DNA of 30,944 bases from a virus (IMGVR_UViG_3300037493_003534:1-30944), one strand, 5' to 3'. Shown: positions 4,526 to 25,263, numbered from the stretch's first letter. Translations and numbers: made by a program. Notes: generated by a model from the letters alone, not told the origin.

Positions 4526-4747
4526 ATGTCAGCAACACGTCATAGATTTTCAAAATGCGGTCATAAAGGGTTCGGAGCTTTTTGTCATAGATGCGATACC
4601 GCAGATAAACTAGAAGCTAAAGCAAAAACTGTTAAGAAAGCTGAACCTAAAGAAGGCAAGAAGGTTCTCGGTCTAGATGAAGCAGGTAAGCTTATGGAAG
4701 AAGCTACACGCTTGCGTAGCGTTCCTGGAGCGTCGGTAAATGACTGA
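4526..4747 (+). CDS. Small protein with N-terminal Cys/His cluster
   Basis: 73 residues from the ATG at 4526; a TTG two codons earlier is possible but less likely. The N-terminus has CGHKGFGAFCHRC (about 11-23), a compact Cys/His set typical of a small zinc finger, followed by a Lys-rich linker and a short helix. The last codons overlap the aminotransferase start (ATGA at 4740), which points to coupled translation. Function unknown. Confidence 0.65.
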   Translation: MSATRHRFSKCGHKGFGAFCHRCDTADKLEAKAKTVKKAEPKEGKKVLGLDEAGKLMEEATRLRSVPGASVND

Positions 4748-5924
4748 GCTAGGTTCTAGCATCATTGATAGCATTGAGGCAGGAGGCATTGTCTCCATTA
4801 GAGATAATCTAATAGCGATGCAGAGCAAAGGAAGAAAGGTTTATCGTTTAGAAGCTGGCGACCCTTCTTTCTCTACTCCTCCTCAGATAATCGAAGCCAT
4901 CAATAAAGCGCTTGCAGATGGTCATACTCATTATACAGCCGGCGCAGGAATTATGCCGTTGCGTGAGGAAATATTTCTAAAACTTACTAGAAAGAATAAT
5001 ATCCCACTCTCTAGTCCAGAACAGGTTCTAGTAACAAATGGTGCTATGCATGCGCTCTACATAGCATTCAGAGCATTATGTTCTCCTGGAGACGAGATAC
5101 TAGTTCCAGACCCAACCTGGACTGAAACAGCAGATAACGTGACGCTTGCTGGTGGTATCCCTGTTAGAGTTCCATTAGACGCCGAAACTGGATATCGTTA
5201 TAGTGCAAATGTTATTAAAAGATATATTACGCCTCGTACCAGAGCTATAGTAATTAATAGCCCTCATAACCCTACTGGCTCTGTATGTAGTCGTGAGGAG
5301 TTAGTAGCGATAATTGATTTGGCGGCTGCACATAATCTTTATATTCTGTCTGATGAGGCATATGAGGATATTTTGTTTGATGGCCGGCAGCATATCAGCA
5401 CAGCCTCCATCTCTACTAACAAAGTAATCTCTGTCTTCTCATTCTCTAAAAGTTATGCTATGAGTGGTCTTAGACTTGGTTATGTAGCAACGACTGACAA
5501 GCTACTACTCCAGCGAATGTCTAAGCTTCTAAGATGCACCATTAATGGTGTAAATTCGGCTACGCAGTATGGTGGGATTGCGGCATTAGCTGGTCATGGG
5601 TTTGGTGGCTGCGGTAGTATGCTGGATGAGTATCACGTTAGACGGGATGCTCTCTTGGATGGCTTAAAGGATGCCAAGTTAGTTCATAGTTTCAAGCCTG
5701 AGGGAGCCTTCTTTTTATGGGCTCGTATTGATGGTGCTTGGGATGGTTATGAAGGCAAGCGTGATGGTTGGGCAATGACGAAGTATCTTGTGGATACTAT
5801 TGGAGTTGGTAGCGCTCCTGGGGAAGTCTTTGGGAGGTGTGGTGCTGGACACGTTCGTTTTGCGTTCTCGTGTTCTACTGACCAAGTTCTTGCGGCTTCT
5901 AAGTTATTGGCACAAGCTCTTTAA
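4740..5924 (+). CDS. Class I/II PLP-dependent aminotransferase
   Basis: Fold-type I pyridoxal-phosphate enzyme moving an amino group between an amino acid and a 2-oxo acid; the substrate cannot be told from sequence. 394 residues, the usual family length. Visible signatures: NGAMHAL in the PLP phosphate region (about 100-106), NSPHNPTG (173-180), SDEAYED with Asp205 and Tyr208, the Schiff-base lysine in SFSKSYAMSGLRLGY (Lys237), and HVRFAFS near the end with the substrate-carboxylate Arg. The enzyme looks intact. The ATG overlaps the previous stop and GGAG lies about nine bases upstream. A strong terminator follows. Central amino-acid enzymes of this kind are uncommon in phages, so this may be an auxiliary metabolic gene taken from a bacterium, or an enzyme for modifying a nucleotide or small molecule. 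Codon use looks like that of its neighbours. Confidence 0.93.
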   Translation: MTELGSSIIDSIEAGGIVSIRDNLIAMQSKGRKVYRLEAGDPSFSTPPQIIEAINKALADGHTHYTAGAGIMPLREEIFLKLTRKNNIPLSSPEQVLVTNGAMHALYIAFRALCSPGDEILVPDPTWTETADNVTLAGGIPVRVPLDAETGYRYSANVIKRYITPRTRAIVINSPHNPTGSVCSREELVAIIDLAAAHNLYILSDEAYEDILFDGRQHISTASISTNKVISVFSFSKSYAMSGLRLGYVATTDKLLLQRMSKLLRCTINGVNSATQYGGIAALAGHGFGGCGSMLDEYHVRRDALLDGLKDAKLVHSFKPEGAFFLWARIDGAWDGYEGKRDGWAMTKYLVDTIGVGSAPGEVFGRCGAGHVRFAFSCSTDQVLAASKLLAQAL

Positions 5925-5949
5925 GATAACTGAAAAGAACAGAAATAGA

Positions 5950-5996
5950 AACGCCGCCCAGACTTAATTGTTTAGGCGGCGTTCTTGTATTTTATT
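5950..5996. terminator. GCCGCC/GGCGGC terminator between converging genes
   Basis: AACGCCGCC (5950-5958) pairs with GGCGGCGTT (5975-5983) and is followed by a T-rich run. It sits between the aminotransferase (plus) and the gene ending at 6002 (minus) and probably works both ways. Confidence 0.85.
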
Positions 5997-6001
5997 TACG
6001 T

Positions 6002-6208
6002 TCAAGTTCCTCGAGGTAAATTCTTTGGTAGGAGCTGTATTATGAGACCTTTAATTACTTCCGCTTTTTTAGCGTCTCCTTGGCTTTCAGCATCTCTTAG
6101 AGCGGCTAATAGTTTATCGACACTTTGTGTTTCCCTAAAATCGCCTTCTTGTTGTTCTTCTATTGCTTCTTTGATTAACTGTTTAAGTTGTCTTACTGAG
6201 ATTCTCAT
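6002..6208 (-). CDS. Small protein with shared N-terminal tag MRISVRQLKQLIKE (copy 1)
   Basis: 68 residues. The first 18 (MRISVRQLKQLIKEAIEE) match the starts of three other genes in this window, while the rest is unrelated and helical (SVDKLLAALRDAESQGDAKK). The tag is amphipathic and contains I-K-E followed by Ala, a match to the L/I-x-E cleavage rule of T4-type prohead proteases. The likely role is a small internal head protein delivered by this tag; this is inference. The ribosome site AAGGAATAAT is strong. It lies directly behind copy 2, probably in the same transcript. Confidence 0.8.
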   Translation of the reverse strand: MRISVRQLKQLIKEAIEEQQEGDFRETQSVDKLLAALRDAESQGDAKKAEVIKGLIIQLLPKNLPRGT

Positions 6209-6225
6209 AATATTATTCCTTATGT
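6174..6225. repeat. 52-bp direct repeat, copy A
   Basis: Identical over 52 bases to 6537-6588. On the minus strand it covers the ribosome site and the first codons of the tagged gene, so leader and tag were duplicated together as one DNA cassette. Confidence 0.95.
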
Positions 6226-6238
6226 AAATTAACTTCTT

Positions 6239-6571
6239 TTAGTATTGATTACGTCGTGCTCTTCGGCGTCTCATCTCTGTAACTGTTGGTGATTGTTTTG
6301 CTTTGGCACGAGTTTTTGCGCCCTGTATTGTGCTTCTAAAGGTATCAATTAAATATTTAATATCATTCATTGATAAATCTTTTATGGCTGACTCGTCCCA
6401 CATTTGTTTCATATTCTTTATAAGTTCTTCTTTATTAGCCTGCCAAGCGCTTTTTGTGCTTGTGCCACCAAAGATATTTGGTTGTTCTGAGCCCTCTGGA
6501 ACTTCCGTTTGCGCCGCTTCTTCTACTTCTTCTTTAATTAACTGTTTAAGTTGTCTTACTGAGATTCTCAT
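6239..6571 (-). CDS. Small protein with shared N-terminal tag MRISVRQLKQLIKE (copy 2)
   Basis: 110 residues: tag (MRISVRQLKQLIKEEVEE), a low-complexity linker (about 19-45), a helical middle (KEELIKNMKQMWDESAIKDL) and a very basic C-terminus (EMRRRRARRNQY) that could bind DNA. A basic body after a removable tag fits a protein packed with DNA in the capsid, like the T4 internal proteins; this is inference by analogy. First gene of a two-gene minus-strand unit. About 30-60 bases upstream lies a 36-base element shared with the unit at 11858. Confidence 0.8.
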   Translation of the reverse strand: MRISVRQLKQLIKEEVEEAAQTEVPEGSEQPNIFGGTSTKSAWQANKEELIKNMKQMWDESAIKDLSMNDIKYLIDTFRSTIQGAKTRAKAKQSPTVTEMRRRRARRNQY

Positions 6572-6588
6572 AATATTATTCCTTATGT
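6537..6588. repeat. 52-bp direct repeat, copy B
   Basis: Perfect copy of 6174-6225. It contains the start region and ribosome site of the gene ending at 6571. Similar but diverged versions occur at 11530-11580 and 11822-11875. Confidence 0.95.
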
Positions 6589-6598
6589 TAGCCGACGC

Positions 6599-6634
6599 TG
6601 AATTTAAATAGTGTTCTATTAATTGTTTTGCCGG
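6599..6634 (-). promoter_or_regulatory. Conserved upstream element of tagged-gene unit 1
   Basis: 32 of 36 bases match 11882-11917, both upstream of a tagged gene. On the minus strand the core reads ACACTATTTAAATTCA. It may be a late-type promoter core, comparable in AT content and position to T4 late promoters but not the same sequence. Confidence 0.45.
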
Positions 6635-6638
6635 CTAG

Positions 6639-6667
6639 TTTAAACGATATTGTGTTTCTGGTATCAT
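6639..6667 (+). promoter_or_regulatory. Promoter TTTAAA-N17-TATCAT for the HD-domain gene
   Basis: The -10 box ends six bases before the ATG at 6674, so transcription should start on the A of the start codon and give a leaderless message. Confidence 0.65.
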
Positions 6668-6673
6668 AAGTCT

Positions 6674-7309
6674 ATGAGTAAATCAAACACACCAGATAAT
6701 CACGATGACCTCCTAATCAAAGTTCAAGAGAATTGGGATAAGGTTAAGAGCCTCGTCAATCGTATAGAAGATGAAAAGGTTAAAGCCGGCTGTATCGCTT
6801 TGACAGATCATCTATATGATAGAATGGCTGTTGCTCCTGCTAGCACACGCAAAGAATATATTGGTTGCTTCGTTGGTGGTCTAGTCTGGCATTCCCTTAA
6901 TGTTCTGAGAACTATGAACTCACTGAGAACGTCATTGGATCTAGGGGATGAAGTATCCGCAGATAGCATGATTTTGCTTGGGCTATTTCACGATATTGGT
7001 AAACTAGGAAATGAAGATAATGACTACTATGTTCCTCAAAATAGTGAATGGCACAGGGAGAAACTAGGTCAACTTTATGAAGTCAATAAAGGAATGGGAA
7101 ATGTTCCTGTTCCAGTGAGAACTCTATGGTGGTTAAATAAGTTTAATATTCCTCTCTCTGAGAATGAAATTCACGCTATTCAATCATTGAAGTTCAATAA
7201 CGAAGAAGTATCTTTTGTTCCCGGCACTAATGAAACTTGGGAACCTTGTCTTCTTCAATCCGCTATCCGAGGTGCTTGTATTAAGTACCGAAATGTTGCC
7301 GGATTATAA
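6674..7309 (+). CDS. HD-domain phosphohydrolase
   Basis: 211 residues. HD-superfamily metal site: His73 in GGLVWHSLNVL, His106-Asp107 in LLGLFHDIGKLGNED, and a later His (SEWHREKLG). Members hydrolyse phosphate bonds in nucleotides or signalling nucleotides; the substrate here is not evident. In phages such enzymes often act in nucleotide pools or against host alarmone or cyclic-nucleotide signals, which is inference. I chose the ATG at 6674 over an upstream TTG because the promoter -10 box lies directly before it and no ribosome site is visible, consistent with a leaderless start. It precedes the replication genes. Confidence 0.85.
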   Translation: MSKSNTPDNHDDLLIKVQENWDKVKSLVNRIEDEKVKAGCIALTDHLYDRMAVAPASTRKEYIGCFVGGLVWHSLNVLRTMNSLRTSLDLGDEVSADSMILLGLFHDIGKLGNEDNDYYVPQNSEWHREKLGQLYEVNKGMGNVPVPVRTLWWLNKFNIPLSENEIHAIQSLKFNNEEVSFVPGTNETWEPCLLQSAIRGACIKYRNVAGL

Positions 7310-7473
7310 TAATTTTCTATATATTAGTATACAAATAATCATCAGTAGAGTATAATTAACTAGGTATAGAAGAGCACACCAATTATAGACTTCCAATTCT
7401 CAATTATGAGACATTTAAGTCTGTGCCTCTTTTATATATGACAAGTCCCTAGTAAGGGCAAAGTAGGTAAAAT

Positions 7474-8316
7474 ATGGCCGGTTATAATTTAGACGCTATT
7501 CGTTCAAAAATCAATCAACTATCAGGCAACAAGAAGGGTGGCGGGACTGCTTCTGGAACAGGCGAGAAAACTAAAATCGCTTGGTGGAAGTCAACCCTAG
7601 GACAACATGATGTTCGCTTTCTTCCATATTCACACAATGGCCAACCATTTCATGAGGTTAGCTACTATGACACAAGACTGTTAGCGGAACGTCGTTTTGT
7701 TTCTGGCGTCCAGTTTGGTCTACCGGATCCAATCTTCAATCTTTTTACTGAGATGAAGAAAGACCGCTCCAAAGAGGCTTGGCTTCAATGGCGTAATCTG
7801 CAAGCAAAAGAGCGCTATTATGCTCCAATCATCGTTCGTGGTGAAGAGGATAAAGGCGTTCAACTTTGGGAGATGAACAGTGCGCTCGTTAATGAAATCT
7901 ATGGAATTCTAGCAAGTCCAGATTATGTCGATGAGAACCTTATGGACCCACAGAAGGGTTATGACTTCACAATCAACGTGACACCCACGGATAAGATGTT
8001 CAATGGGTCTCCTGTTAAGAAGATCACACCGCTTCCCCGTCGTAAGCCAAGTCCGCTTGCTACAACGGAAGAAGGAATCAAGAAGATTATGGAAGGTATT
8101 CCTAGTCTTGAAGCATACTTCAAGGCGCAAGTGAAGACTGAGGAAGAGTGTCATACGATGCTTGAAAACTTTGCGGCCGGAGGTTCTGTTCCTGAGGATG
8201 AAACTCCTGCTCAAACATCGTCTTCAACTGGAACTTCGAAGGAGTCTTCTGAGGCTGCTAACGTTAAGGTCCGAGCTTCAAAACAAAAAATCGATGATGC
8301 CTTCAAGGATTTATGA
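7474..8316 (+). CDS. gp32-like single-stranded DNA-binding protein
   Basis: 280 residues. The central part matches the T4 gp32-like family: TKIAWWKSTLGQHDVRFLPY (about 33-52), RYYAPIIVRGEEDKG, LWEMNSALVNEIYGIL, YDFTINVTPTDK, and PVKKITPLPRRKPSPLA. The end is Ser/Glu-rich with an acidic tip (IDDAFKDL), as in proteins that recruit replication partners. Only one Cys is present, so the T4-type zinc site is absent. It coats ssDNA in replication and recombination, working with the recombinase encoded next and with the polymerase. AGTAGGTAA precedes the ATG. A terminator follows, so expression is separate from the recombinase. Confidence 0.9.
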   Translation: MAGYNLDAIRSKINQLSGNKKGGGTASGTGEKTKIAWWKSTLGQHDVRFLPYSHNGQPFHEVSYYDTRLLAERRFVSGVQFGLPDPIFNLFTEMKKDRSKEAWLQWRNLQAKERYYAPIIVRGEEDKGVQLWEMNSALVNEIYGILASPDYVDENLMDPQKGYDFTINVTPTDKMFNGSPVKKITPLPRRKPSPLATTEEGIKKIMEGIPSLEAYFKAQVKTEEECHTMLENFAAGGSVPEDETPAQTSSSTGTSKESSEAANVKVRASKQKIDDAFKDL

Positions 8317-8353
8317 CGGAAAACGTACCCTGAAGTTCAGTAACTAAATAAGA

Positions 8354-8395
8354 GAAATGCCGCCAGAACTTAAATGTTTAGGCGGCGTTTTTCAT
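8354..8395 (+). terminator. GCCGCC/GGCGGC terminator after the ssDNA-binding protein gene
   Basis: GCCGCC and GGCGGC flank a 16-base loop and are followed by GTTTTT. Confidence 0.88.
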
Positions 8396-8405
8396 TACAT
8401 AGAAG

Positions 8406-8434
8406 TTTAATTCCAGCGATAGTTCTGTTAAGAT
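8406..8434 (+). promoter_or_regulatory. Promoter TTTAAT-N17-TAAGAT for the recombinase operon
   Basis: Fits the family seen through the window. Its leader carries a good ribosome site, AAAAGGAAA, before the ATG at 8461. Confidence 0.55.
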
Positions 8435-8460
8435 GAAATTTGAAAAGGAAACGTGTAATT

Positions 8461-9723
8461 ATGGCCAAACCTGTAACAACAAAGAAAAGTGAAGTAAAGC
8501 CGGCAATAGAAAAGACTAAAACAGCACAAGATAATGTAACCGATGATTTCTCCGCTGACCTCATTAAAATGATTAATAAAGAACACAATTCCAAAATTGC
8601 GTTCAACCTGGGGACCGATACAGCACCAACAGATGTTAAACGCTGGATTTCAACCGGCTCTAAACAAATGGACTATATCATCTCCAATAGAAGAGATGGT
8701 GGTCTACCAGAAGGTCGTATCGTTGAAATTCAAGGACCTCCCGGCATAGGTAAGTCTACCCTTGTCTCTCTCATCGCTCGTTCTACTCAACAAATGGGTG
8801 GTATCGCTGTCTATATCGATACAGAAAATGCTACCAATCCAGAAATGCTTGCAAATATGGGAGTTGATGTTGCTAAACGTTTTATCTTTGTTCAATCCCC
8901 TTGCACAGAAGAGATTTTGAACGTTATTGAAAGCACAATTCTTAAAGCCCGCTCAATGACAAAAGATGTTCCGGTCACTGTTATCTGGGATAGCGTAAGT
9001 CAATCTTCCCCAAGAGCGGAACTTGAAGGTGACTATGACCAGAACTCTATTGGTCTTCAAGCAAGAGTGCTCTCCAAGGGTATGAGAAAAATTGCTAACG
9101 TAATCGGGGGACAAAATGTTCTGCTAGTCCTAGTTTCACAGCAAAGAATGAAAATAGGAGTCCTTTACGGGGATCCGGTAACGACTGCTGGAGGTATGGC
9201 TATTCCATATTCAGCTTCTGTTAGAATACGTTTGGATGGCGGCTCACAAATTAAAGATAAAGATGATAACGTTATTGGTATCAACTGCACTGCAAGAACT
9301 ATTAAGAATAAAGTTGCTAAACCATTCCGAAAGATTGGGTTCCGTATTTTATTTGGAAGAGGCATCTTTGAATCCGAAGAACTATTTGATCTTCTTCGTG
9401 TTCATTGTAAAGAGAATGCTAAAACCCCTTGCAAGACTAATGGTAAATTAGTTTCTATTGATGGTGAAGGAGCGTGGAAGACCTTTACTATTGCTAATGA
9501 AAAGACTGGCGAGATAGAGACGGAAGTTAAATTCTATAAGCAAGACTTTGGCCCGAAGGTATTGGATGTTCCAGAGTATAAGGAATATGTTGCCGCTCTT
9601 ATGGATGCCGCACTTGTTCTTGGTACAGGTTCGGCTATTGAAGAGCACCAGACTTATGAAGAGAGTCCTGAAGGTGAAGTAGGTGCTCAAGGGTCTTCTG
9701 CTGAAGATATTGTTGTAAACTGA
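8461..9723 (+). CDS. RecA/UvsX-type recombinase
   Basis: 420 residues. Catalyses homology-directed strand exchange in repair and recombination-dependent replication. Visible: Walker A QGPPGIGKST (91-100), IDTENATNPEML in place of the RecA E-N-A segment, a Walker B strand VTVIWDSVSQSSP, and the L2 region YGDPVTTAGGMAIPYSASVRI. There is an extended N-terminus (about 60 residues) and an acidic C-terminal tail (GSAIEEHQTYEESPEGE). Closer in layout to phage RecA homologues than to host RecA. The ATG at 8461 is preferred over TTG 8440 because AAAAGGAAA lies just upstream of it. Followed after 14 bases by dUTPase, one operon. Confidence 0.92.
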   Translation: MAKPVTTKKSEVKPAIEKTKTAQDNVTDDFSADLIKMINKEHNSKIAFNLGTDTAPTDVKRWISTGSKQMDYIISNRRDGGLPEGRIVEIQGPPGIGKSTLVSLIARSTQQMGGIAVYIDTENATNPEMLANMGVDVAKRFIFVQSPCTEEILNVIESTILKARSMTKDVPVTVIWDSVSQSSPRAELEGDYDQNSIGLQARVLSKGMRKIANVIGGQNVLLVLVSQQRMKIGVLYGDPVTTAGGMAIPYSASVRIRLDGGSQIKDKDDNVIGINCTARTIKNKVAKPFRKIGFRILFGRGIFESEELFDLLRVHCKENAKTPCKTNGKLVSIDGEGAWKTFTIANEKTGEIETEVKFYKQDFGPKVLDVPEYKEYVAALMDAALVLGTGSAIEEHQTYEESPEGEVGAQGSSAEDIVVN

Positions 9724-9737
9724 AAAGGAAAATAGAG

Positions 9738-10208
9738 ATGACTGATAGACAAGGAACGATAAAGGTTTTATTTAAGAAACTATCTCCGGGGGCAAAGATA
9801 CCTACTTCGATTGGAGAAGGTAATGTTGGTTTTGATGTATATTGTGATGAGGAGGTAGCGATACCTTCTATGAGAACAAAGAAGATATCTTCTGGTATTC
9901 AATTAGCAGATGCTTCTTCACAGGATATAGCCGGCAATAGTATCTTTCTTAAAATTGAAGGCAGAAGTGGATTAGCGGCACGTGGAGTCTTTCCTATCGG
10001 TGGAATAGTTGATATTTCCTACCGTGGAACTCTTGGTATAATGTTAGCGAATATGAGCGATGTTACTGTTATCTTTAAGCCCGGCGATAGAATAGCTCAA
10101 CTTGTGGTCTATAAGGTAGGATGCTCACCAGAGGTCCTAATGGCTGAAACTGACGTAGTTGCGGAGACAACCAGAGGAAGTGCCGGGTTCGGATCAAGTG
10201 GGGCCTGA
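9738..10208 (+). CDS. dut: dUTPase (deoxyuridine triphosphatase)
   Basis: Hydrolyses dUTP to dUMP and pyrophosphate, keeping uracil out of DNA and feeding dTMP synthesis. 156 residues, the trimeric family length. All five motifs are visible: GFDVYC (motif 1), GRSGLAARG (2), GGIVDISYRGTLGIML (3, with the catalytic-water Asp and the Tyr that excludes ribose), GDRIAQLVV (4) and RGSAGFGSSG (5). Complete and probably active. AAAAGGAAA upstream; a terminator follows. Confidence 0.96.
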   Translation: MTDRQGTIKVLFKKLSPGAKIPTSIGEGNVGFDVYCDEEVAIPSMRTKKISSGIQLADASSQDIAGNSIFLKIEGRSGLAARGVFPIGGIVDISYRGTLGIMLANMSDVTVIFKPGDRIAQLVVYKVGCSPEVLMAETDVVAETTRGSAGFGSSGA

Positions 10209-10237
10209 CAGTCTTATAACGTAATCCACAAATAAGA

Positions 10238-10276
10238 AACGCCGCTAGACCAATAAAGGTTTAAGCGGCGTTCTTG
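10238..10276 (+). terminator. GCCGCT/AGCGGC terminator after dut
   Basis: AACGCCGCT (10238-10246) pairs with AGCGGCGTT (10264-10272), then a T-rich tail. Confidence 0.88.
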
Positions 10277-10300
10277 TATTATATTCGGCTAAAAACATTG

Positions 10301-10329
10301 TTTATCTTTATATTCAGTTATGATATGGT
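10301..10329 (+). promoter_or_regulatory. Weak promoter TTTATC-N17-TATGGT
   Basis: The -10 is weak, but the geometry (six bases to the ATG at 10336) is the same as in the other leaderless genes. Confidence 0.35.
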
Positions 10330-10335
10330 TAGAGT

Positions 10336-10482
10336 ATGAATACTTCAATATATTTTACAGTCTCGAATAGTTCCACAAACCAGACCTACGGCTATTTCTC
10401 CTCCAAAGAGCAAGCTACCTATTATATCATATTGTCCGGCTCTATGGATGACCTGATTATAAAAGAATTCAATAGAGTTTAG
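10336..10482 (+). CDS. Small hypothetical protein
   Basis: 48 residues, beginning MNTSIYFTVSNSSTNQ and ending IIKEFNRV. Has no ribosome site but sits six bases after a possible -10 box. The stop overlaps the -35 box of the next promoter. No family recognised; it could be a small regulatory peptide. Moderate confidence that it is a gene. Confidence 0.45.
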   Translation: MNTSIYFTVSNSSTNQTYGYFSSKEQATYYIILSGSMDDLIIKEFNRV

Positions 10483-10506
10483 AAGTGGGGCAGGACCTGT
10501 TATATT
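10478..10506 (+). promoter_or_regulatory. Promoter TTTAGA-N17-TATATT with structured leader
   Basis: Fits the promoter family. The leader 10508-10550 can fold into a stem: GAGGTAGAGATGA against TCATCTAGCCTC, imperfect. It may be a stabilising or regulatory 5' hairpin. Confidence 0.5.
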
Positions 10507-10572
10507 AAGAGGGTGAGGTAGAGATGAACTAAATCATCTAGCCTCCCCTAACAAAAAAGAGATAGAAGAAAC

Positions 10573-10815
10573 ATGTCATACGCATATCGTCAGTTCCCAG
10601 AGTCCAAAGTTGTCAAGTCAGTTAGCCTTCGCACCAGCGAGAATGGCGCCAATAACATCCTTCATGTCAAGATCCGCTCAACCGGAAATGTCTATGAGTA
10701 TCGTATGGGTTCCAAGCGCACTGAGAACTTCGTCAATGAGGCGTTCTGGGGTGGAAATATTCTTAAGGCCTTCAAGACCGCTACTAAGGGTCTTCAGTCT
10801 ACGCTCGTAGCCTGA
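10573..10815 (+). CDS. Small protein, possibly KTSC-like
   Basis: 80 residues. The centre, LHVKIRSTGNVYEYRMGSKR, followed by a helix and aromatic residues (NEAFWGG) and a basic helix, loosely resembles the KTSC fold, whose role is unknown. The gene is GC-richer than its neighbours, with codons like those of the VWA and MoxR genes, and has its own promoter, leader hairpin and strong terminator, which suggests high expression. Family assignment weak; existence of the gene is well supported. Confidence 0.65.
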   Translation: MSYAYRQFPESKVVKSVSLRTSENGANNILHVKIRSTGNVYEYRMGSKRTENFVNEAFWGGNILKAFKTATKGLQSTLVA

Positions 10816-10844
10816 TTACTAAAACCACCAAAACTGAATGAATG

Positions 10845-10878
10845 AAAGCCCAGATAGAAATATCTGGGCTTTATCATT
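10845..10878 (+). terminator. Strong intrinsic terminator
   Basis: Perfect 12-bp stem, AAAGCCCAGATA with TATCTGGGCTTT, loop GAAA, then a T-rich stretch. Confidence 0.92.
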
Positions 10879-10887
10879 TCTATATCC

Positions 10888-10893
10888 TATAAT
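10888..10893 (+). promoter_or_regulatory. -10 box TATAAT six bases before ATG 10900
   Basis: Perfect TATAAT placed to start transcription on the ATG. No clear -35 at 17 bases, so a weaker call. Confidence 0.45.
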
Positions 10894-10899
10894 TTATTT

Positions 10900-11229
10900 A
10901 TGGTCAACAGTGATTTCATAATTGGCAAGTTATATGTCTATTCAGATTATAGCTGGAATTCTTCTTATGAGAAGGAATATAAGCGACTGAATGATAACAT
11001 ATCATTTCATATGGCGCCTATGCTAGGACAACGTGGGGATTTAGAACAATTCTTTAATGTTAAAGAACCATTCTTAATCTTAGAGAAACTTTATATTGCC
11101 GCCACAAAAGTTAAATCTATTCAAAATGCTGAATTCTTAACTTATAATAAATGGCAAGTGAAAATTCTGGTCAATGAGAATATCGGTTGGCTTTCTATTT
11201 GGGATTATGAATTCTCCGAACTCGTGTAG
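10900..11229 (+). CDS. Hypothetical protein
   Basis: 109 residues, rich in aromatic residues (LYVYSDYSWNSSYEKEY, WLSIWDYEF) and probably a small beta-rich fold. Family not recognised. The ATG lies six bases after TATAAT and lacks a ribosome site, so translation is probably leaderless. A bidirectional-looking terminator follows. Confidence 0.65.
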   Translation: MVNSDFIIGKLYVYSDYSWNSSYEKEYKRLNDNISFHMAPMLGQRGDLEQFFNVKEPFLILEKLYIAATKVKSIQNAEFLTYNKWQVKILVNENIGWLSIWDYEFSELV

Positions 11230-11261
11230 TAAGTTGTTTGCCCGGCCAAATTATAAAGAAA

Positions 11262-11310
11262 AACGCCGCTTAAACTTTTAAGAGTTCAGGCGGCGTTCTT
11301 ATATTGTTAA
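11262..11310. terminator. Terminator between converging genes
   Basis: AACGCCGC pairs with GCGGCGTT across an inner AACT/AGTT stem, with T-rich sequence after it on the plus strand. Lies between converging genes ending at 11229 and 11323. Confidence 0.85.
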
Positions 11311-11322
11311 ATAGATGATCAA

Positions 11323-11568
11323 CTAGGCGACCATTCTATCAAGAATTTCTTGTTTAAGTTCTTTGTAATCATAACGATCGTCCGCACGAACCGCATCCTC
11401 AAACATGTCAACTAGTTCTTCTTTTGAAAGACGGCCTCCACGCTCAGACGGCTCTAGTCCTTGACGATCAGCGTTAATACGCTCCTCGGCCCAATCATCT
11501 CTGTCCTCGCCTGACTCTTCAATTTGTTCTTTAATAATTTGTTTAAGTTGTCTAATTGAAATTCTCAT
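11323..11568 (-). CDS. Small protein with shared N-terminal tag MRISIRQLKQIIKE (copy 3)
   Basis: 81 residues: tag MRISIRQLKQIIKEQIEE, then an acidic, helical body (SKEELVDMFEDAVRADDRYD) unlike the other tagged proteins. I-K-E then Gln again fits a prohead-protease site. The ribosome site AAAAGGAATAAT is shared with copies 1 and 2. Second gene of a minus-strand pair with copy 4. Proposed internal head protein, by inference. Confidence 0.8.
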   Translation of the reverse strand: MRISIRQLKQIIKEQIEESGEDRDDWAEERINADRQGLEPSERGGRLSKEELVDMFEDAVRADDRYDYKELKQEILDRMVA

Positions 11569-11597
11569 GATATTATTCCTTTTCTTTCTTTGTTTTA

Positions 11598-11858
11598 CTA
11601 TTCTAACTCTGCAATTAATTTATCGATTAGATCTGATACATCTGGCCGGTCATCGCCATCCACAAGCTGAAGAATATTTTTCTTTAATTTTGCAACCTTT
11701 GGATTACGATCTTTATCAGTCCAACCACCTCGCTGAGATTCTCTACCACGTTCACGAGGAAGCGCAGGTCCTCTTGGGCCAAAATCTTCTTTATCTGACC
11801 AACCTTCTTCTACTTGCTCTTTAATAATTTGTTTAAGTTGTCTGATAGAAATTCTCAT
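11598..11858 (-). CDS. Small protein with shared N-terminal tag MRISIRQLKQIIKE (copy 4)
   Basis: 86 residues. A longer frame opens at 12011, but the tag begins at the internal ATG 11858, preceded by AAAGGAAAA, so I place the start there. Tag MRISIRQLKQIIKEQVEE is followed by a Gly/Pro/Arg-rich stretch (about 23-45, PRGPALPRERGRESQRGG) and a C-terminal helix (VSDLIDKLIAELE). Upstream is the 36-base element also found before copy 2. First gene of the pair. Confidence 0.8.
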   Translation of the reverse strand: MRISIRQLKQIIKEQVEEGWSDKEDFGPRGPALPRERGRESQRGGWTDKDRNPKVAKLKKNILQLVDGDDRPDVSDLIDKLIAELE

Positions 11859-11881
11859 TATTGTATTTTCCTTTAACCGGT

Positions 11882-11917
11882 TGAATTTAAATAGTGTCCC
11901 ATTATTTCTTTTGCCGG
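11882..11917 (-). promoter_or_regulatory. Conserved upstream element of tagged-gene unit 2
   Basis: Matches 6599-6634 at 32 of 36 bases, same distance class and orientation relative to a tagged gene. Probable shared promoter core or operator. Confidence 0.45.
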
Positions 11918-11949
11918 TTTTTATTTCACTAAAAGCCCGGCACAATTCG

Positions 11950-11978
11950 TTTAAACTAAATTTCAACTCTGCTAAACT
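11950..11978 (+). promoter_or_regulatory. Promoter TTTAAA-N17-TAAACT
   Basis: Drives the membrane-protein gene at 12002, which has a ribosome site AAAGGAATAA before its ATG. Confidence 0.55.
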
Positions 11979-12001
11979 TAAAACTATCCCAAAGGAATAA
12001 A

Positions 12002-12286
12002 ATGAAAGCAATATCAGGTTTCATCTCAGCAGTGCTCTCCCAAGTAGTCATCGGCCTAGTAATAGGTATGCTCTGGAATTACAGCATATCCCCTCTCGGC
12101 TTACCAAATATGTCTATGACTCATGCTTGCGCCATATGGTGTCTAATAGTCCTAATCACCACAGTAATAACCTATATCGCCACTAACATAGTAATGGTAG
12201 TTATTGAATATTACCGCAAACTTCAACTGGCCGAAACCGTAGAAGCACTCGCTAAATTAGATAAAGATAAGTCAGAAGAAGACTGA
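12002..12286 (+). CDS. Small two-span membrane protein
   Basis: 94 residues. Two hydrophobic segments (about 5-26, FISAVLSQVVIGLVIGML; and about 44-70, IWCLIVLITTVITYIATNIV) and a charged helical tail (AETVEALAKLDKDKSEED). No signal cleavage site is obvious. The family is not recognised. Size and topology would suit a superinfection-exclusion or lysis accessory protein, but nothing specific supports either. Good ribosome site and own promoter. Confidence 0.7.
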   Translation: MKAISGFISAVLSQVVIGLVIGMLWNYSISPLGLPNMSMTHACAIWCLIVLITTVITYIATNIVMVVIEYYRKLQLAETVEALAKLDKDKSEED

Positions 12287-12294
12287 TTATATCC

Positions 12295-12945
12295 CTAACG
12301 CTGACCTTCCGAAGCAAAGAAGACTGCCGGAGGTATCATCTTAAGCGTCCGCTCTATCATGTCTAACGTCTTAATCATTTCTAACTTAATATCATTAAGA
12401 AGCCTATGATAAGGCTCAGATGGCATTTTTGGCGAACCCTTGGCTATAATATTAGCCTTAAATAATCGCATCAATTCTTCCTTAGGAGCATAATCTGCTC
12501 CCATACCAACTCGATCTTCATTTAACATTCCAGTTTGATGAAGACCAATAGATATATAAGGAGTAGCTCTAAACTCACGTTCAATATCATTTATTGACAA
12601 AACAGCGTCTGACTGTTGTTCTGGCGTAAGTTGCTTCATTAACTCTTTATGAACCTTAGAGATGGCTTGCTCAACAATATCATGGAATTGTTGCTCTGAA
12701 CTCACACCGTGAGGAGCCATATCCATAATTCTTTGTAAAACATTATCATATATTTCTTGCCGCTTAAAGTATAATTTACCCATAGGCTCTGGGTCAGGTG
12801 CCCCATTTCCCATTTGAATAGTCACATTCGCTTCTGGTGCTCCATTACCTGCTTGAATAGCAATAGTTTGCTCCATTTGCTCGTTAAGCACTTGAAGCCT
12901 CATCCAACCCTTGAAGCGCTCAGATTCCGATATAATGTTTCTCAT
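12295..12945 (-). CDS. Possible internal head protein with a different N-terminal tag
   Basis: 216 residues. Starts MRNIISESERFKGWMRLQVLNE, then Gln: an amphipathic N-terminus ending in L-N-E, which fits the T4-type L-x-E protease rule though it differs in sequence from the MRIS tag. A two-copy internal repeat follows (TIAIQAGNGAPEA / NVTIQMGNGAPDPE, about 32-58). The rest is helical (LQRIMDMAPHGVSSEQQF, EAISKVHKELMKQL). Family not recognised; the head role is inferred from the N-terminus and from neighbouring tagged genes. No clear ribosome site. TAAATACT lies about 15 bases before the ATG and could be a late-type promoter core. Confidence 0.6.
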   Translation of the reverse strand: MRNIISESERFKGWMRLQVLNEQMEQTIAIQAGNGAPEANVTIQMGNGAPDPEPMGKLYFKRQEIYDNVLQRIMDMAPHGVSSEQQFHDIVEQAISKVHKELMKQLTPEQQSDAVLSINDIEREFRATPYISIGLHQTGMLNEDRVGMGADYAPKEELMRLFKANIIAKGSPKMPSEPYHRLLNDIKLEMIKTLDMIERTLKMIPPAVFFASEGQR

Positions 12946-13273: not shown

Positions 13274-13801
13274 TTAGGCTATAAGCTTATAAAGTTCTGC
13301 TTCGTGAATAACTTGCACTCCAAGTTTCTGAGCCTTAGCAAGCTTGCTTCCACCTTTATTAATCGCTGAACCTTGAAGAAGATAAGTTAGACCTTTGGTT
13401 ACGGCGGTCTTTACTTCTCCACCATGCATTATGATAATTTTATCTACAACAGCCCGGGAGAGATGAGCATGTTCTCCAGTCATACAGAAAGATAAGCCGG
13501 CTAACTTCGTGCTAGGTTCCACTGCTATAAAATGAGTCTTGGCATCGCTAGCATGTATAGACGCTATTCCAGATTCCGCTACCAATATCTTTAATGAATT
13601 CTTACTATTCCATTGATCTCTTCCACCAAGACCTATCATATTGTTTTCAAGAATAATATGATAATCGCCAGTAGTAAAACTATAATACTTAGTTGAACTG
13701 CCGATTGCTTCATAATCTACACAATGAAATGGTCTAGTCGTTAAAACATACTTGCCAGGTATAAAGTTATATAATTCAGCTGGGAATTCAATGGTTGGCA
13801 T
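13274..13801 (-). CDS. BRCT-domain protein A
   Basis: 175 residues. The C-terminal ~78 form a ligase/RFC-type BRCT domain: LAGLSFCMTGEHAHLSR, IIIMHGGEVKTAVTKGLTYLLQG, SKLAKAQKLGVQVIHEAELYKLI, with the usual G-G turn and the pattern of a conserved aromatic or hydrophobic residue near the end. The N-terminal ~98 are a different, beta-rich region I do not recognise. BRCT domains bind DNA ends or phosphopeptides, often in repair complexes. The downstream partner of a second BRCT gene starts ten bases away. GAGGGG precedes the ATG. Confidence 0.85.
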   Translation of the reverse strand: MPTIEFPAELYNFIPGKYVLTTRPFHCVDYEAIGSSTKYYSFTTGDYHIILENNMIGLGGRDQWNSKNSLKILVAESGIASIHASDAKTHFIAVEPSTKLAGLSFCMTGEHAHLSRAVVDKIIIMHGGEVKTAVTKGLTYLLQGSAINKGGSKLAKAQKLGVQVIHEAELYKLIA

Positions 13802-13811
13802 AATTCACCCC

Positions 13812-14393
13812 TCACACAAAAAACTTAAAGAACTCAGACTCCGATATCATTTTAATACCATGCTTCTTAGCATATAGAATAGTATTACTAGCCGTACTAC
13901 TACAATTGATAACCAAATTTGTTTTATCAGTTGGTTTAGGACTATACACGCCGCCACTTAATTCAATTAAGTTCTTAAATGTGTTCTTAGGGTAAGCTGT
14001 TGCTGCCCCAGTAATTGTAATGTCATAACCTTTAAGGTTTTCTGTTAAAGGGCAATAAAACCAAAACTTCAAGTCTTCTTTGATAATAGTTTTATAGGTG
14101 TCATTCCATACTACTTTTAAGCCGGCAATATTATCCATCAAATGTCGTGGCTTAGGATGATTTAGTTCAATACCGGTTATCATATGAACATTCTGTTCAA
14201 ATAAGATACTATCCAAATCCTCATTCGTCGGTGCCCAAGCATACTTATGAGAATTCTTCCATGTCTCCGCCATTAGCGTATAGACAATGAATTTACCAAG
14301 CGCAGGTACCTTAAGCGCTTTTGGTATACGATGTTTATAGATCATCGTATTTCTATCATGCCCACAGGGCATCCATTTATTGTTTAATTTCAT
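13812..14393 (-). CDS. BRCT-domain protein B
   Basis: 193 residues. C-terminal BRCT (LKGYDITITGAATAYP, LIELSGGVYSPKPTDKTNLVI, ILYAKKHGIKMISESEFFKFF, about 118-193) after a longer N-terminal region that differs from that of protein A. The start shares its A with the stop of the gene before it (TAATG), so translation is coupled. Two BRCT proteins in tandem could form a heterodimer in a DNA repair or end-binding complex; this is inference. Confidence 0.83.
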   Translation of the reverse strand: MKLNNKWMPCGHDRNTMIYKHRIPKALKVPALGKFIVYTLMAETWKNSHKYAWAPTNEDLDSILFEQNVHMITGIELNHPKPRHLMDNIAGLKVVWNDTYKTIIKEDLKFWFYCPLTENLKGYDITITGAATAYPKNTFKNLIELSGGVYSPKPTDKTNLVINCSSTASNTILYAKKHGIKMISESEFFKFFV

Positions 14394-16578: not shown

Positions 16579-16998
16579 TTATGCTTTTTCATTTGGCCAG
16601 ACATATTCCAAGCCAGGAACTTCTGTCCAACCATACTTCGAATACCAATCAAAATTCTTGCTCAATAGCTTGCTCCGGTGTGAAGCATGAAAATTAGCAT
16701 CGCCAACCCAATAAGGTGCAATAGCATTATTGAGATCACGGATTCCCATAAATCTTGGGAGCAGAGTGTCCTTGTAGCCTCTACTGCGCCACTCCTCAAT
16801 CATTGCTATTCCATACTCCACCAAGGAAGGAACATGTCCTCGCCACATCTTAACAGCTGGATGATTCTTCCAGCCATATTCAGGTTCAGTAAGAGCCTTG
16901 ATAATTTGCCAAGTCTCTACACGTTGTTTACCTAGCCGTCTCATATCCATAACAGAGGCAGATAGTTTATAATCAGGATATGGTAGAAATGTCTGCAT
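16579..16998 (-). CDS. Pyrimidine-dimer DNA glycosylase-like protein
   Basis: 139 residues. MQTFLPYPDYKLSASVMD, then RRLGKQRVETWQIIKALT and GWKNHPAVKMWRGH match the family annotated as pyrimidine dimer DNA glycosylase / MSMEG_6728-like, which is related to T4 endonuclease V. These enzymes start repair of UV cyclobutane dimers; the function of most members is untested. A longer frame opens at 17091, but the ATG at 16998 has AAGGAAATTG directly before it and begins the conserved region. Overlaps the end of the upstream gene by 26 bases, so coupled. Confidence 0.85.
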   Translation of the reverse strand: MQTFLPYPDYKLSASVMDMRRLGKQRVETWQIIKALTEPEYGWKNHPAVKMWRGHVPSLVEYGIAMIEEWRSRGYKDTLLPRFMGIRDLNNAIAPYWVGDANFHASHRSKLLSKNFDWYSKYGWTEVPGLEYVWPNEKA

Positions 16999-17356
16999 CA
17001 ATTTCCTTATAATAAGTCGGAAGGGCGGGGGATAGATTTTTCTCAAAATAAGAGGCCGGCAACATAACTGGTGCTTCCTCATATAAAGCAACTACCCAAC
17101 GGTCCCGCCAACCATAACCGTTTACATAAAGATAGCTCTGCGTATTCTTATCCAATTGATGATGCGTTAGAATATCAAGAACAACAATAGGAATATTACA
17201 TTTAATCAACAGCTTCTTAGCACGGGGTACCTTAGGCTCATAATCAGTGTGAAGCCGCCAAATCCCTCTATCCTGCCAAGTCTCGTAAGCTATCAACCCA
17301 TAAGGCTCGTCGCTATCGCAGATACATAAGGAACCAATCTTAATCGGTTTTAGCAT
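16973..17356 (-). CDS. Hypothetical protein
   Basis: 127 residues, rich in Trp and Tyr (GWRDRWVVALYEEAPVMLP), with beta-strand pattern and no membrane segment. Family not recognised. Its 3' end overlaps the glycosylase gene by 26 bases and it follows the terminator of the VWA gene, so it probably has its own promoter, which I could not identify. Confidence 0.65.
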   Translation of the reverse strand: MLKPIKIGSLCICDSDEPYGLIAYETWQDRGIWRLHTDYEPKVPRAKKLLIKCNIPIVVLDILTHHQLDKNTQSYLYVNGYGWRDRWVVALYEEAPVMLPASYFEKNLSPALPTYYKEIDADISTIS

Positions 17357-17407: not shown

Positions 17408-18778
17408 TCAGATGGTCTTAAACTTACCGCTGTCCTTCTTCATGCAACACACCAGGTCGCCAGGACGCATTGCCTCAGTCGAGCCCGTCGGCGTGATAAC
17501 CCAAAGAACCTTTGCCCCAAGAACTTGGCCCATCGTCGGAGCGTAGCCATCGGTAAGGATGATGATACCCGACCAGCGATTCTTATTCTTCGAATCATTC
17601 ACGAAGTTAGCGACGGCCTGGAAATCCGTGCCACCACACCGGGTCCGAAGACACTGCGGATTTGCATCGCCCTTCTTCCAGACCTTATGCGAATTCTCGT
17701 CAATCTCGGTATCAAAGTGATACACGTCAAGCTTCGTAAGGTTAGCAAGCTGTCCAAGCTCACTAAACAGCATTGCGATATCTTCGTCGGCCATGGAACC
17801 GGACTGGTCCATGAAACACGCAAAGTTTGCGACCATCGGGCGACGAACGCCGGGATGAATATACGGCATCTTCTTATTGATGCGCTTAATCGTGGTATTG
17901 CGGTCCGTCGAACGAGCACGCCCGATAAAGTTCCGAATGATGCTCTTCCAGTCAACCTCATTCGAAAGCATCTTACGAATCATTTCCTGGATATGCGCAG
18001 GAACCGATCCCCACTGATTGCTACGGTCGGCACGCTTGGAAGCACGCTCGATAAGATCCTTCATCTTATCACGCATTTCCTCGGCCATTTCGGGATCAAG
18101 GTCGGCCCAACCATCGTGCGAATCCATCGTGCCCATGCTATCAAAGATGACCTGCATCGACTCGTCGTTATCGCCCTGCTCCTCACGAATCTTCTTCAAT
18201 TCGTCATAGTAATAATCGCTCGCCTGAATTGGAGGCGCATTGGCGATAAAATCGGCATACTTGTTTTCGCCCGGCTTCATCGAACCGTCCTTCTGCTTCT
18301 CCAAGGGACGCACACCCGGGATCAGACAAATCTTAGGAAGACGGTTAGCACCGATAATGCTGTTAATCGCAAGATCGGTCGCCCAGTTCCACATCATCTG
18401 GTCGCTAGACTTCGCAACGCTACGGTGGAAGATATGACCGAAAATAACATGGTAAAGCTCATGGCAGATAACGCCCTTACGCTCCTCACGAGAAAGATCA
18501 CGGAGAAACTTAGGAGAATAACCCATGATAACCTCATGGCGAGCACCATTCTTACGGACGCCGACGTATGCGGTCGGACACGCAGAATCGGCAATCTTCG
18601 TGATATCAAGAGAGACACCACCAAGGAACGGATCCGTCATATACAGTTCTAGGAAATCGTAATCGAATTCGTCGGCACGCAGGAGCGTGTTCTCGGCAAT
18701 TTCCTTACGGGCAGCAAGGGCAGCCGCCTTGTGCTCTTCGTCGGTCTTCGGATTCTGAGATGCGTTGTTCGTTGACAT
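17408..18778 (-). CDS. Metallopeptidase-like / VWA protein, partner of the MoxR ATPase
   Basis: 456 residues with two regions. N-terminal: a zincin-like site ICHELYHVIFGH (His106, Glu107, His110, His115), as in the DUF2201 family. C-terminal: a von Willebrand A domain with MIDAS residues DQSGS (324-328), Thr384 in GGTDF, and LTDG (Asp410), which bind Mg/Mn and a ligand. Proteins with this pair of domains commonly work with MoxR AAA+ ATPases that remodel targets; such a gene lies at 20384. Both are GC-richer than neighbours. Promoter TTTAAA-N17-TATAAT ends six bases before the ATG, so the message should be leaderless. The role in phage biology is unknown; target remodelling or counter-defence are guesses. 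Confidence 0.9.
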   Translation of the reverse strand: MSTNNASQNPKTDEEHKAAALAARKEIAENTLLRADEFDYDFLELYMTDPFLGGVSLDITKIADSACPTAYVGVRKNGARHEVIMGYSPKFLRDLSREERKGVICHELYHVIFGHIFHRSVAKSSDQMMWNWATDLAINSIIGANRLPKICLIPGVRPLEKQKDGSMKPGENKYADFIANAPPIQASDYYYDELKKIREEQGDNDESMQVIFDSMGTMDSHDGWADLDPEMAEEMRDKMKDLIERASKRADRSNQWGSVPAHIQEMIRKMLSNEVDWKSIIRNFIGRARSTDRNTTIKRINKKMPYIHPGVRRPMVANFACFMDQSGSMADEDIAMLFSELGQLANLTKLDVYHFDTEIDENSHKVWKKGDANPQCLRTRCGGTDFQAVANFVNDSKNKNRWSGIIILTDGYAPTMGQVLGAKVLWVITPTGSTEAMRPGDLVCCMKKDSGKFKTI

Positions 18779-18935: not shown

Positions 18936-19045
18936 TTTTTTCTGTGGAAGGCTACCAATAGAAGCAAGAAAAGCTCAGGAATTCACGGCGACTTGCCAGC
19001 CTGCAAGCTAAGTAGCTGAAATTACATAAGAAAGCCGCCAGCCCT
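18936..19045. repeat. Imperfect direct repeat, copy A, at the end of the GIY-YIG gene
   Basis: Shares CCCATTTTCCCATA near its left end and a region near 19005-19045 (CTAAGT, TGAAAT, ACA, AGAAA, CCAGCC in order) with 20182-20262. It overlaps the 3' end of the endonuclease gene. Confidence 0.6.
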
Positions 19046-19967
19046 TGTGGCTTGGCCGTTTACTGCGCAAAACTTCGGACATCTTACAGGATAGCAAGCT
19101 ATGGGCCCGGCAAAAGTCTTCAAGACACTCGATTCTTAGAAATTGTTCTCCCGTTGGAGATATCAAGGGATTAAGAGATAAGTCATAAATCTTCGCTGAA
19201 GGGTTCTTCATTCCGGCGATCTTTGAACAAGAGGTGCCTTTTCGTTTTGAAGGCCGGCCCTTATTTGCTTGGCTAACTTTGTTCTTGGCTTCTTCGGAAT
19301 GATGCCGGCCATACATCGCATTATTCTCCCCAGCTTGCTTCCCAATATTAGACTCAGAGTTCTTCCTATTGGACTCCTCAGACTGCTTCTTGCCATACAT
19401 AGGATTCCCCTCGCCAGCATTCTCTTCTTTAAGTCTATTGATTCTACGCTTTCCGGCTTCCGATTCATAAAAGGCTTTCTGTGATTCACTCATTGTCTTT
19501 CGGTCTTCTTCTGTGAAGACATGTGTTCTCCCGCCGTCTAACACGTTACAGACTTTACGACCTCCGTGCAATTTCCTATATTCCTTTATAAGCTCTTGTT
19601 CCCTTTGATCTAGTCTCAACCTCTTCTCGTCATCCGAAGCCAAGGAAGAGACATCTACGACCTCTACAATAGAGAATTTAAGAAAGTCCAGGTTGCCTTC
19701 TTTCTTATAGTGTTTCTGGACCGAACGCTTAAGCTTAATATTTGAACCACTTCTCTTATCAATATGAACCGGCTTAAGAAGATCTCGTTTGTAATCCGCC
19801 CATCTTTCCTTTAACTCTCTTCTTGTCTGACCTATATAGACATTCTTGGAAATTGTGTTTTCTATTTTGTAGATAATAAACCTTGTTCTCGAATGTTGCT
19901 CTCCGCTAAATTCATAATCCAAATTCCATTTCAATTTTTCGTCGCCTTGAACTTCTAGGTTTTCCAT
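19008..19967 (-). CDS. GIY-YIG homing endonuclease with NUMOD motifs
   Basis: 319 residues. Free-standing DNA endonuclease of the Seg/intron-homing type that spreads its own gene by cutting a target and being copied in by repair. GIY-YIG core: FIIYKIENTISKNVYIGQTR (about 31-50), an Arg-containing helix (LKERWADYK), and Glu in a later helix. DNA-binding region: two NUMOD3-like units (EGNPMYGKKQSEESNRK and GENNAMYGRHHSEEAKNK, about 184-228), then a C-terminal helix-turn-helix-like part ending HKGWRLSYVI. AAAGGAAATCAAA precedes the ATG. It lies between the VWA and MoxR genes and is bounded by imperfect direct repeats, consistent with a recent insertion. Confidence 0.93.
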   Translation of the reverse strand: MENLEVQGDEKLKWNLDYEFSGEQHSRTRFIIYKIENTISKNVYIGQTRRELKERWADYKRDLLKPVHIDKRSGSNIKLKRSVQKHYKKEGNLDFLKFSIVEVVDVSSLASDDEKRLRLDQREQELIKEYRKLHGGRKVCNVLDGGRTHVFTEEDRKTMSESQKAFYESEAGKRRINRLKEENAGEGNPMYGKKQSEESNRKNSESNIGKQAGENNAMYGRHHSEEAKNKVSQANKGRPSKRKGTSCSKIAGMKNPSAKIYDLSLNPLISPTGEQFLRIECLEDFCRAHSLLSCKMSEVLRSKRPSHKGWRLSYVISAT

Positions 19968-20181: not shown

Positions 20182-20262
20182 CCCCATTTTCCCATAGTAA
20201 TTCCAGCCGACTTCCCGACCCCTCTCCTAAGTGCTTGAAATCACACAGAAAACCAGCCTAGA
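20182..20262. repeat. Imperfect direct repeat, copy B
   Basis: Resembles 18936-19045. It includes CTAAGTGCTTGAAAT (20227-20241), the reverse complement of the 15-base repeat at 24240 and 24760. Reads on the minus strand like a degenerate endonuclease gene end. Confidence 0.55.
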
Positions 20263-20281
20263 AAAATTCTTTTTTAATTGG

Positions 20282-20310
20282 TTTAAAAGGGACGTTTTAT
20301 TTGTTATACT
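20282..20310 (+). promoter_or_regulatory. Promoter TTTAAA-N17-TATACT for the MoxR gene
   Basis: Transcription should begin near 20317, downstream of the earlier in-frame start at 20231, which places the true start at the ATG 20384. Confidence 0.7.
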
Positions 20311-20383
20311 GAGTATATCAAGACGAACGAAACGACTCGCTCCTAACTGCTCCCAAGATTACGAAAGATTACAGAAAAGAAAT

Positions 20384-24843: not shown

Positions 24844-25263
24844 ATGTCCCTAGAGGAAATTCTAATATTGAAACTGAGAAGTGAACGTAAAGAGAAGCCA
24901 GTCAACTTATCCTATTCGAAGTCCATAGACATATGGATAAATGCGGCTTTACGCAAGCTAAAACTTGAAGACAAAATAGGTAAAATACATTGGCAACTTA
25001 ATGAAGAATTAAGTGGAGTAGTAGCAAGAGCTAAATTTCTAATAATAATGAATGAAAAAGTATTTACATATTTAGAATTTAGCCCGACCTTCTTTCATAA
25101 CACTCAATCTCAAAAACAAAGAAGAGAAATAGTTTATCACGAAGTAGCTCATGTGGTAGACTCTTATTGTGCCGGCTCTTCCGGTGGTCATAATAAAAAT
25201 TGGAAATACCTAATGAAGCTTGCAGGAGTGCCAGCCAAAACCTCTTATGAATTGATACGATAA
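24844..25263 (+). CDS. SprT-like zinc metalloprotease-like protein
   Basis: 139 residues. YHEVAHVVDSYCAG (about 98-111) is the HExxH zinc site with the downstream SSGGHNKNWKYLMKLAG, whose His is the third ligand as in SprT/Spartan proteins. SprT proteins in eukaryotes cut DNA-protein crosslinks; phage and bacterial roles are less known. No strong ribosome site; a hairpin in the leader lies just before the ATG. Stop overlaps the next start (TAATG). Confidence 0.8.
   Translation: MSLEEILILKLRSERKEKPVNLSYSKSIDIWINAALRKLKLEDKIGKIHWQLNEELSGVVARAKFLIIMNEKVFTYLEFSPTFFHNTQSQKQRREIVYHEVAHVVDSYCAGSSGGHNKNWKYLMKLAGVPAKTSYELIR

Follow-up and report, generated by a model that had tools for sequence, protein, structure and literature searches.

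Four small minus-strand genes in the viral sequence IMGVR_UViG_3300037493_003534:1-30944 (the window: a complete IMG/VR entry, 30,944 bases long) all start with one short peptide, MRIS[VI]RQLKQ[LI]IKE (MRISVRQLKQLIKE or MRISIRQLKQIIKE). We consider it likely that this N-terminal tag is a capsid-targeting propeptide, working like the capsid-targeting sequence (CTS) of the T4 internal proteins with a different sequence. Late in infection the tag would dock its cargo onto the prohead core; a prohead protease of the gp21 type would then cut after a glutamate that lies within the tag or shortly behind it and free the body inside the head, from which it would be ejected with the DNA to act on the host. 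The original prediction had likewise proposed a capsid-targeting and protease-release signal. In its favour are a Peptidase_S77 gene in relatives of the window, a motif-bearing gene beside that protease, and the likeness of the tag end to the capsid maturation site; the claim is weakened in that it rests on relatives. The tagged genes and their surroundings are as follows (lengths in amino acids, aa):

6002..6208, minus strand: tagged gene t1, 68 aa, starting MRISVRQLKQLIKEAIEE...
6167..6208, minus strand: tag of t1, residues 1-14
6239..6571, minus strand: tagged gene t2, 110 aa, with a basic C-terminus
6530..6571, minus strand: tag of t2, residues 1-14
11323..11568, minus strand: tagged gene t3, 81 aa
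11527..11568, minus strand: tag of t3, residues 1-14
11598..11858, minus strand: tagged gene t4, 86 aa
11817..11858, minus strand: tag of t4, residues 1-14
6604..6610, minus strand: TATTTAA box 5' of the t2-t1 cassette, a candidate late-type promoter element
11887..11893, minus strand: TATTTAA box 5' of the t4-t3 cassette, lying, like the t2-t1 box, in a ACACTATTTAAATTCA context
5945..5990, minus strand: intrinsic terminator after the t2-t1 cassette, GAACGCCGCC...GGCGGCGTT (-22.3 kcal/mol, z -6.3)
11256..11303, minus strand: intrinsic terminator after the t4-t3 cassette (-21.9 kcal/mol, z -5.7)

The start of t4 was placed at the ATG at 11858 rather than at the upstream TTG of a longer open reading frame (ORF). 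All four genes are where the original prediction had placed them, and the tag profile matches the window in exactly these four places (E 1e-8 to 1e-7); the acidic residues expected behind the tag are there as well (AIEE, EVEE, QIEE and QVEE). In front of each pair lie the ACACTATTTAAATTCA stretch and a ribosome site of the AAGG type, and behind it a strong terminator, the stems of the two being nearly identical (GAACGCCGCC), so that each pair appears to be a self-contained bicistronic cassette. On the reading given above, the two cassettes would hold genes for head cargo, each under a promoter and terminator of its own, and would be easy to duplicate and swap. That the bodies share nothing, as had been claimed, is slightly too strong: most pairs are essentially unrelated, but those of t3 and t4 are faintly alike (among 300 shuffles, 1 was as good), and these two may be diverged paralogues. 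PHROGs and Pfam gave nothing convincing for the window's tagged proteins, the best match being phrog_3951 for t2 (E 0.00095, a family of unknown function), and a PDB sequence search with t2 returned no match.

A fifth gene (12295-12945) had been counted with the set as one with a different amphipathic N-terminus ending L-N-E. Its product (MRNIISESERFKGWMRLQVLNEQ) has I-S-E and L-N-E near the N-terminus. The claim did not hold up: this protein has no match to the tag profile even at E<=1, no convincing relatives of it were found, and nothing ties the gene to the set, from which we removed it.

The window, a phage fragment, contains replication genes of the T4 type, among them a gp32-like single-stranded DNA-binding protein, a UvsX-like recombinase (8440-9723) and a family A DNA polymerase (by PHROGs and Pfam), and it carries ten tRNAs. 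With its UvsX as query, 52 related viral loci were recovered. In 2.79 Mb of related contigs, a position-specific score over the first 18 residues, trained on clear cases and run on all start positions, picked out 127 proteins at 18 bits or more and two others between 8 and 18 bits; in the reversed control none of 53,559 N-termini rose above 9.2 bits. These 127 proteins were not fetched by pattern, though the score was seeded from clear cases. By the DNA pattern MKITxxQLKx[hydrophobic]I[polar]E, at least 120 stretches match in viral contigs and seven in 257 Gb of bacterial and archaeal genomes. Three of the seven sit on one 306 kb contig that also carries an S77 prohead protease; this contig, to judge by the protease, almost certainly belongs to a phage and was binned into a bacterial genome. 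A pattern modelled closely on the tag of the window found nothing in the viral contigs searched, a set that may leave out the nearest records.

Altogether, 437 distinct complete tagged proteins (median length 117 aa) were collected, whose bodies fall into 284 clusters, 238 of them singletons: a short N-terminal peptide on unrelated bodies, as in a CTS. An alignment of 140 of them gives the consensus MKITKxQLKxIIKEE, after which almost nothing is kept; the conservation of the pattern letters is partly built in, since some of the collected proteins were retrieved by means of that pattern. Tag profile matches number 30 in a contig of 242 kb, 30 in 289 kb, 32 in 273 kb, 32 in 293 kb, 26 in 185 kb, 8 in a relative of 320 kb and 22 in an uncultured phage of 484 kb, counts that are approximate because at least one match near E 0.005 is internal to a gene and possibly due to chance. 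Among close relatives, codon differences within the tag are more often synonymous (1315) than non-synonymous (1023), which suggests selection on the peptide. Judging from these searches, the tag occurs clade-wide among Far-T4-like phages. We found no description of it in the literature searched, from which subscription papers were mostly missing.

Recognisable domains are few in the 140 tagged bodies scanned, so that each tagged protein is an effector only by hypothesis. Those seen include an L,D-transpeptidase YkuD domain, a match to RNase T/DNA polymerase exonuclease, HEAT/LRV repeats (in the protein L107:11643-13268) and FliG_C. Relatives of the window also share a conserved protein of 294-295 aa with the N-terminal tag motif (L078:6026-6910, L087:270-1157 and L082:10949-11833). 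The L078 copy has a weak match to sigma-70 region 4 (20.2 bits, cut-off 24.1); if the tag is a head signal, this protein would be a virion-packaged sigma-like factor.

The link to the head comes from two relatives of the window with head modules, whose UvsX proteins are 73% and 62% identical to that of the window. Both carry a Peptidase_S77 gene, of the T4 gp21 family, and the S77 protein tested (from one relative) matches the prohead core protein protease PDB 5jbl with E 3.5e-12. The gp21-like protease that the original prediction had proposed to search for is thus present in relatives, the window fragment itself having no head module. The T4-like module of these relatives runs in the order portal-like protein, protein of about 290 aa, protease, protein of 155-159 aa, protein of 160-165 aa, acidic scaffold-like protein and gp23-type capsid protein, and its 155-aa protein starts with the tag motif (MKLTKGEFRLMIKECIRELITEG in one relative, MKLTRSQFKGLMKECLTELINEG in the other). 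A search with the capsid protein yielded 80 more loci, of which 48 had the protease, or 45 once duplicates were removed. A gene scoring as tagged lies at most 1.2 kb downstream of the protease in 31 of these 45 loci, and in 11 of the remaining 14 the gene at this place has, by eye, the motif displaced by a few residues (e.g., MTRSELKEIIKECILEV and MSRVSRSQLKGIVKECLIEILSEG); in all, 42 of the 45 loci have the motif at or near the N-terminus of the gene just downstream of the protease. Often the next consecutive head-module gene has a related start (MKLTSRLLKKIIAEEVAK). These head-module genes probably encode core or assembly proteins. Tag and protease also occur on the same contig (as in G008): S77 was found in 15 of 26 long tagged contigs, including all 13 with a Gp23 match. 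An argument from strand, by which the tags would lie on the late-gene strand, was dropped: head genes and uvsX share one strand in the relative G004, and the tags oppose uvsX in the window and its closest relatives.

The form of the tag end is what would be expected of a substrate of the same protease that matures the capsid. T4 gp23 loses a propeptide of 65 residues (PMC9026906). This propeptide ends FLTE, and in the column of its E65 all 74 aligned capsid proteins of the group have [LI]-x-E, usually L-[KR]-E, with K or R at P2 in 66 of the 74 and mostly S or A at P1'. Many of the S77 proteases have M-I-K-E followed by S or A directly before the catalytic domain, plausibly a self-cleavage site. 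The tag ends in [LI]-I-[KR]-E, the same hydrophobic-[KR]-E form. Two hydrophobic residues followed by [KR]-E occur at residues 8-16 in 65% of tagged ORFs (83 of the 127 score-selected proteins) versus 0.8% of untagged ORFs on the same contigs. Among the 437 tags, 86% have [LIM]-x-E ending at residue 14, where the collecting pattern fixes some positions in many of them, and 275 have a second [LIM]-x-E in residues 15-30, versus 168 expected from shuffles. At the sites ending at residue 22 the next residue is often G, A or S; in the window, the second site would be [IV]-E-E, with its last glutamate at residue 18 and Q, A, S or G behind it. A hydrophobic (L/I)-x-E site is thus found in or directly after the peptide, and glutamates 14, 18 and 22 are the candidate positions after which the cut would fall. 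The I-K-E named as the cut site in the original prediction does have the form of the capsid maturation site, but the [LIV]-x-E sites at E18 and E22 often have a more typical P1'.

Several observations weigh against the tag being a CTS-like propeptide. The residue after E14 is glutamate in most tags, which is never so at the capsid sites examined here, and in the few lineages whose capsid site has N or Q at P2 the tag shows no matching change; co-variation of the two P2 residues was looked for and not seen. S77 went undetected in 11 of the 26 long tagged contigs, which may be incomplete. The 30.9 kb window fragment holds no head module, so the connection with the head is drawn from relatives. 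In T4, the tag profile finds nothing at E<=0.05. Moreover, tag amphipathicity is not clearly above that of shuffled peptides (the hydrophobic moment beat 95% of shuffles for 1 of 7 peptides), and we dropped it as evidence.

The untypical P1' at E14 would be accounted for if the tag were an uncleaved docking helix of a virion or assembly component (core scaffold, portal or inner capsid) and its bearers were permanent structural or assembly factors instead of injected cargo. The motif-bearing genes of the head module would fit as well, since they probably encode core or assembly proteins. We nevertheless hold this to be unlikely, since capsid-site-like hydrophobic-x-E motifs recur in or just after the tag and since the cargo, with its 284 body clusters, is hugely variable, unlike a structural set. 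Somewhat less probable still is that one ancestral gene gave rise to the tagged genes through tandem duplication, their bodies evolving fast and the N-terminus being kept for a reason outside the head, such as binding to membrane, nucleoid or RNA polymerase, or translation. The promoter-like box, ribosome site and terminator common to both cassettes, the possible remote paralogy of t3 and t4, and the 33 same-strand neighbouring tagged pairs among 146 tagged genes all agree with such an expansion; against it stand the motif at or almost at the start of one, often two consecutive, head-module genes, the capsid-like cleavage motif at the tag end, and the excess of synonymous codon changes in the tag. 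Chance or artefactual likeness of short N-termini has nothing but the shortness of the motif to recommend it. The reversed control, which has 0 N-termini above the threshold that 127 tagged proteins pass, and the profile search, with its low E-value for each match in the window, refute it, and we give it next to no credence.

A capsid-targeting propeptide is the reading we keep. Built on it, and put forward more tentatively as something short of an even bet, is the wider picture that large Far-T4-like phages load about thirty fast-changing proteins into one head by one universal tag and deliver them with the DNA, the tag then reading out an early host-acting arsenal mostly without recognisable domains. 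Normally, the proteins that a phage injects are identified by virion proteomics, separately for each phage. Should the tag prove to direct proteins to the head, sequence alone would suffice to assign to the virion hundreds of proteins, so far uncharacterised, from a widespread group of uncultured phages, and to nominate them as factors that take over the host or counter its defences early in infection. A movable capsid-targeting peptide, as known from T4, would then be used elsewhere on a far larger scale, and foreign proteins could be loaded into phage heads with a new packaging tag.

As regards expression, TATTTAA occurs within 90 nt upstream of the start in 21 of 28 tagged genes of the window and its close relatives, versus 8 of 236 other long ORFs (Fisher p 7e-19). 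The T4-type late promoter element is TATAAATA, and the likeness of TATTTAA to it would fit late expression of the tagged genes. The box is a candidate promoter-like element. From the capsid genes of the relatives, which lie inside operons, no comparison was obtained for TATTTAA.

Elsewhere in the window, an aminotransferase class I/II gene (4740-5924, plus strand; Pfam E 2.5e-56) is a possible auxiliary metabolic gene. Two adjoining genes at 13274-14393 (minus) each have a BRCT domain at the C-terminus and are possibly a duplicated pair. A DUF2201 metallopeptidase/VWA protein (17408-18778, minus) and an ATPase of phage family phrog_1297 (20231-21655, plus) together resemble a MoxR-VWA pair. 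The window further has a pyrimidine dimer glycosylase of the T4 endonuclease V type (16579-17091), a GIY-YIG endonuclease with NUMOD3 (19008-19967), an SprT-like protein (24844-25263) and a recombination endonuclease VII (27516-28259).

The closest known system in form is the CTS of T4. There, a short CTS serves to pack the internal proteins, which are then injected (PMC9026906, PMC9391042); the propeptide directs them to the core, and gp21 cleaves it (PMC9026906). Among them are IPI, which blocks a restriction system, and IPIII, which T4 needs on one E. coli strain (PMC9026906, PMC9391042). Like the CTS of IPI, IPII, IPIII and Alt, the tag is a short N-terminal peptide common to otherwise unrelated small proteins, starts MK, ends in a hydrophobic-x-E readable by a gp21-type protease, and occurs on genes outside the head module. 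Unlike it, the tag reads MKITxxQLKxIIKE, whereas IPII and IPIII have MKTYQEFIAE in common; a large genome has about 30 tag matches in place of T4's three internal proteins and Alt; and the motif is also found on head-module genes themselves. Because its profile finds no match in T4, the tag is classed as working like a CTS and not as its homologue, the likeness being one of form only. The prohead-protease propeptides of giant phages (SPN3US gp245, phiKZ and 201phi2-1 substrates) are comparable in that head proteins are trimmed after glutamate and many proteins are packaged and ejected (PMC10052503, PMC5694885); they differ in being mostly long (two in SPN3US have 20-24 residues) and are not described there as one common tag.

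By capsid-protein length and head gene set, the carriers of the tag look like the uncultivated Far-T4 clade (PMC4360716), with which they share T4-type gp23, portal and replication genes. The capsid proteins of the two closely examined relatives have 639 aa (in the nearest relative with a head module) and 638 aa versus 521 aa in T4, a greater length such as was reported for Far-T4; the window fragment holds no gp23. A text search of the Far-T4 paper turned up no description of N-terminal tags (PMC4360716). Among cultured phages, tblastn against phage records with the tag peptide and with a head-module gene returned nothing, and Flavobacterium phage vB_FspM_immuto (MW353176.1) was found by profile search only. 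In immuto, gene 191 (843 aa, at about 115972) has a tag-like stretch of 24 residues that is internal instead of N-terminal and may be an internal cleavage site or due to chance. No published virion proteome of immuto was found in the literature searched. Its capsid protein is 47% identical to that of a window relative, it encodes an S77 protease as gene 200, and its genes 190 (MKKSQLRQIIKEAL) and 176 (MKKSQLREIIRKEL) start with a shortened version of the tag; between portal and protease lies a small gene that starts MKKSQIVKAVQEVLEE. The tag of immuto is shorter and has few copies (two clear), and immuto is the nearest cultured phage that carries it.

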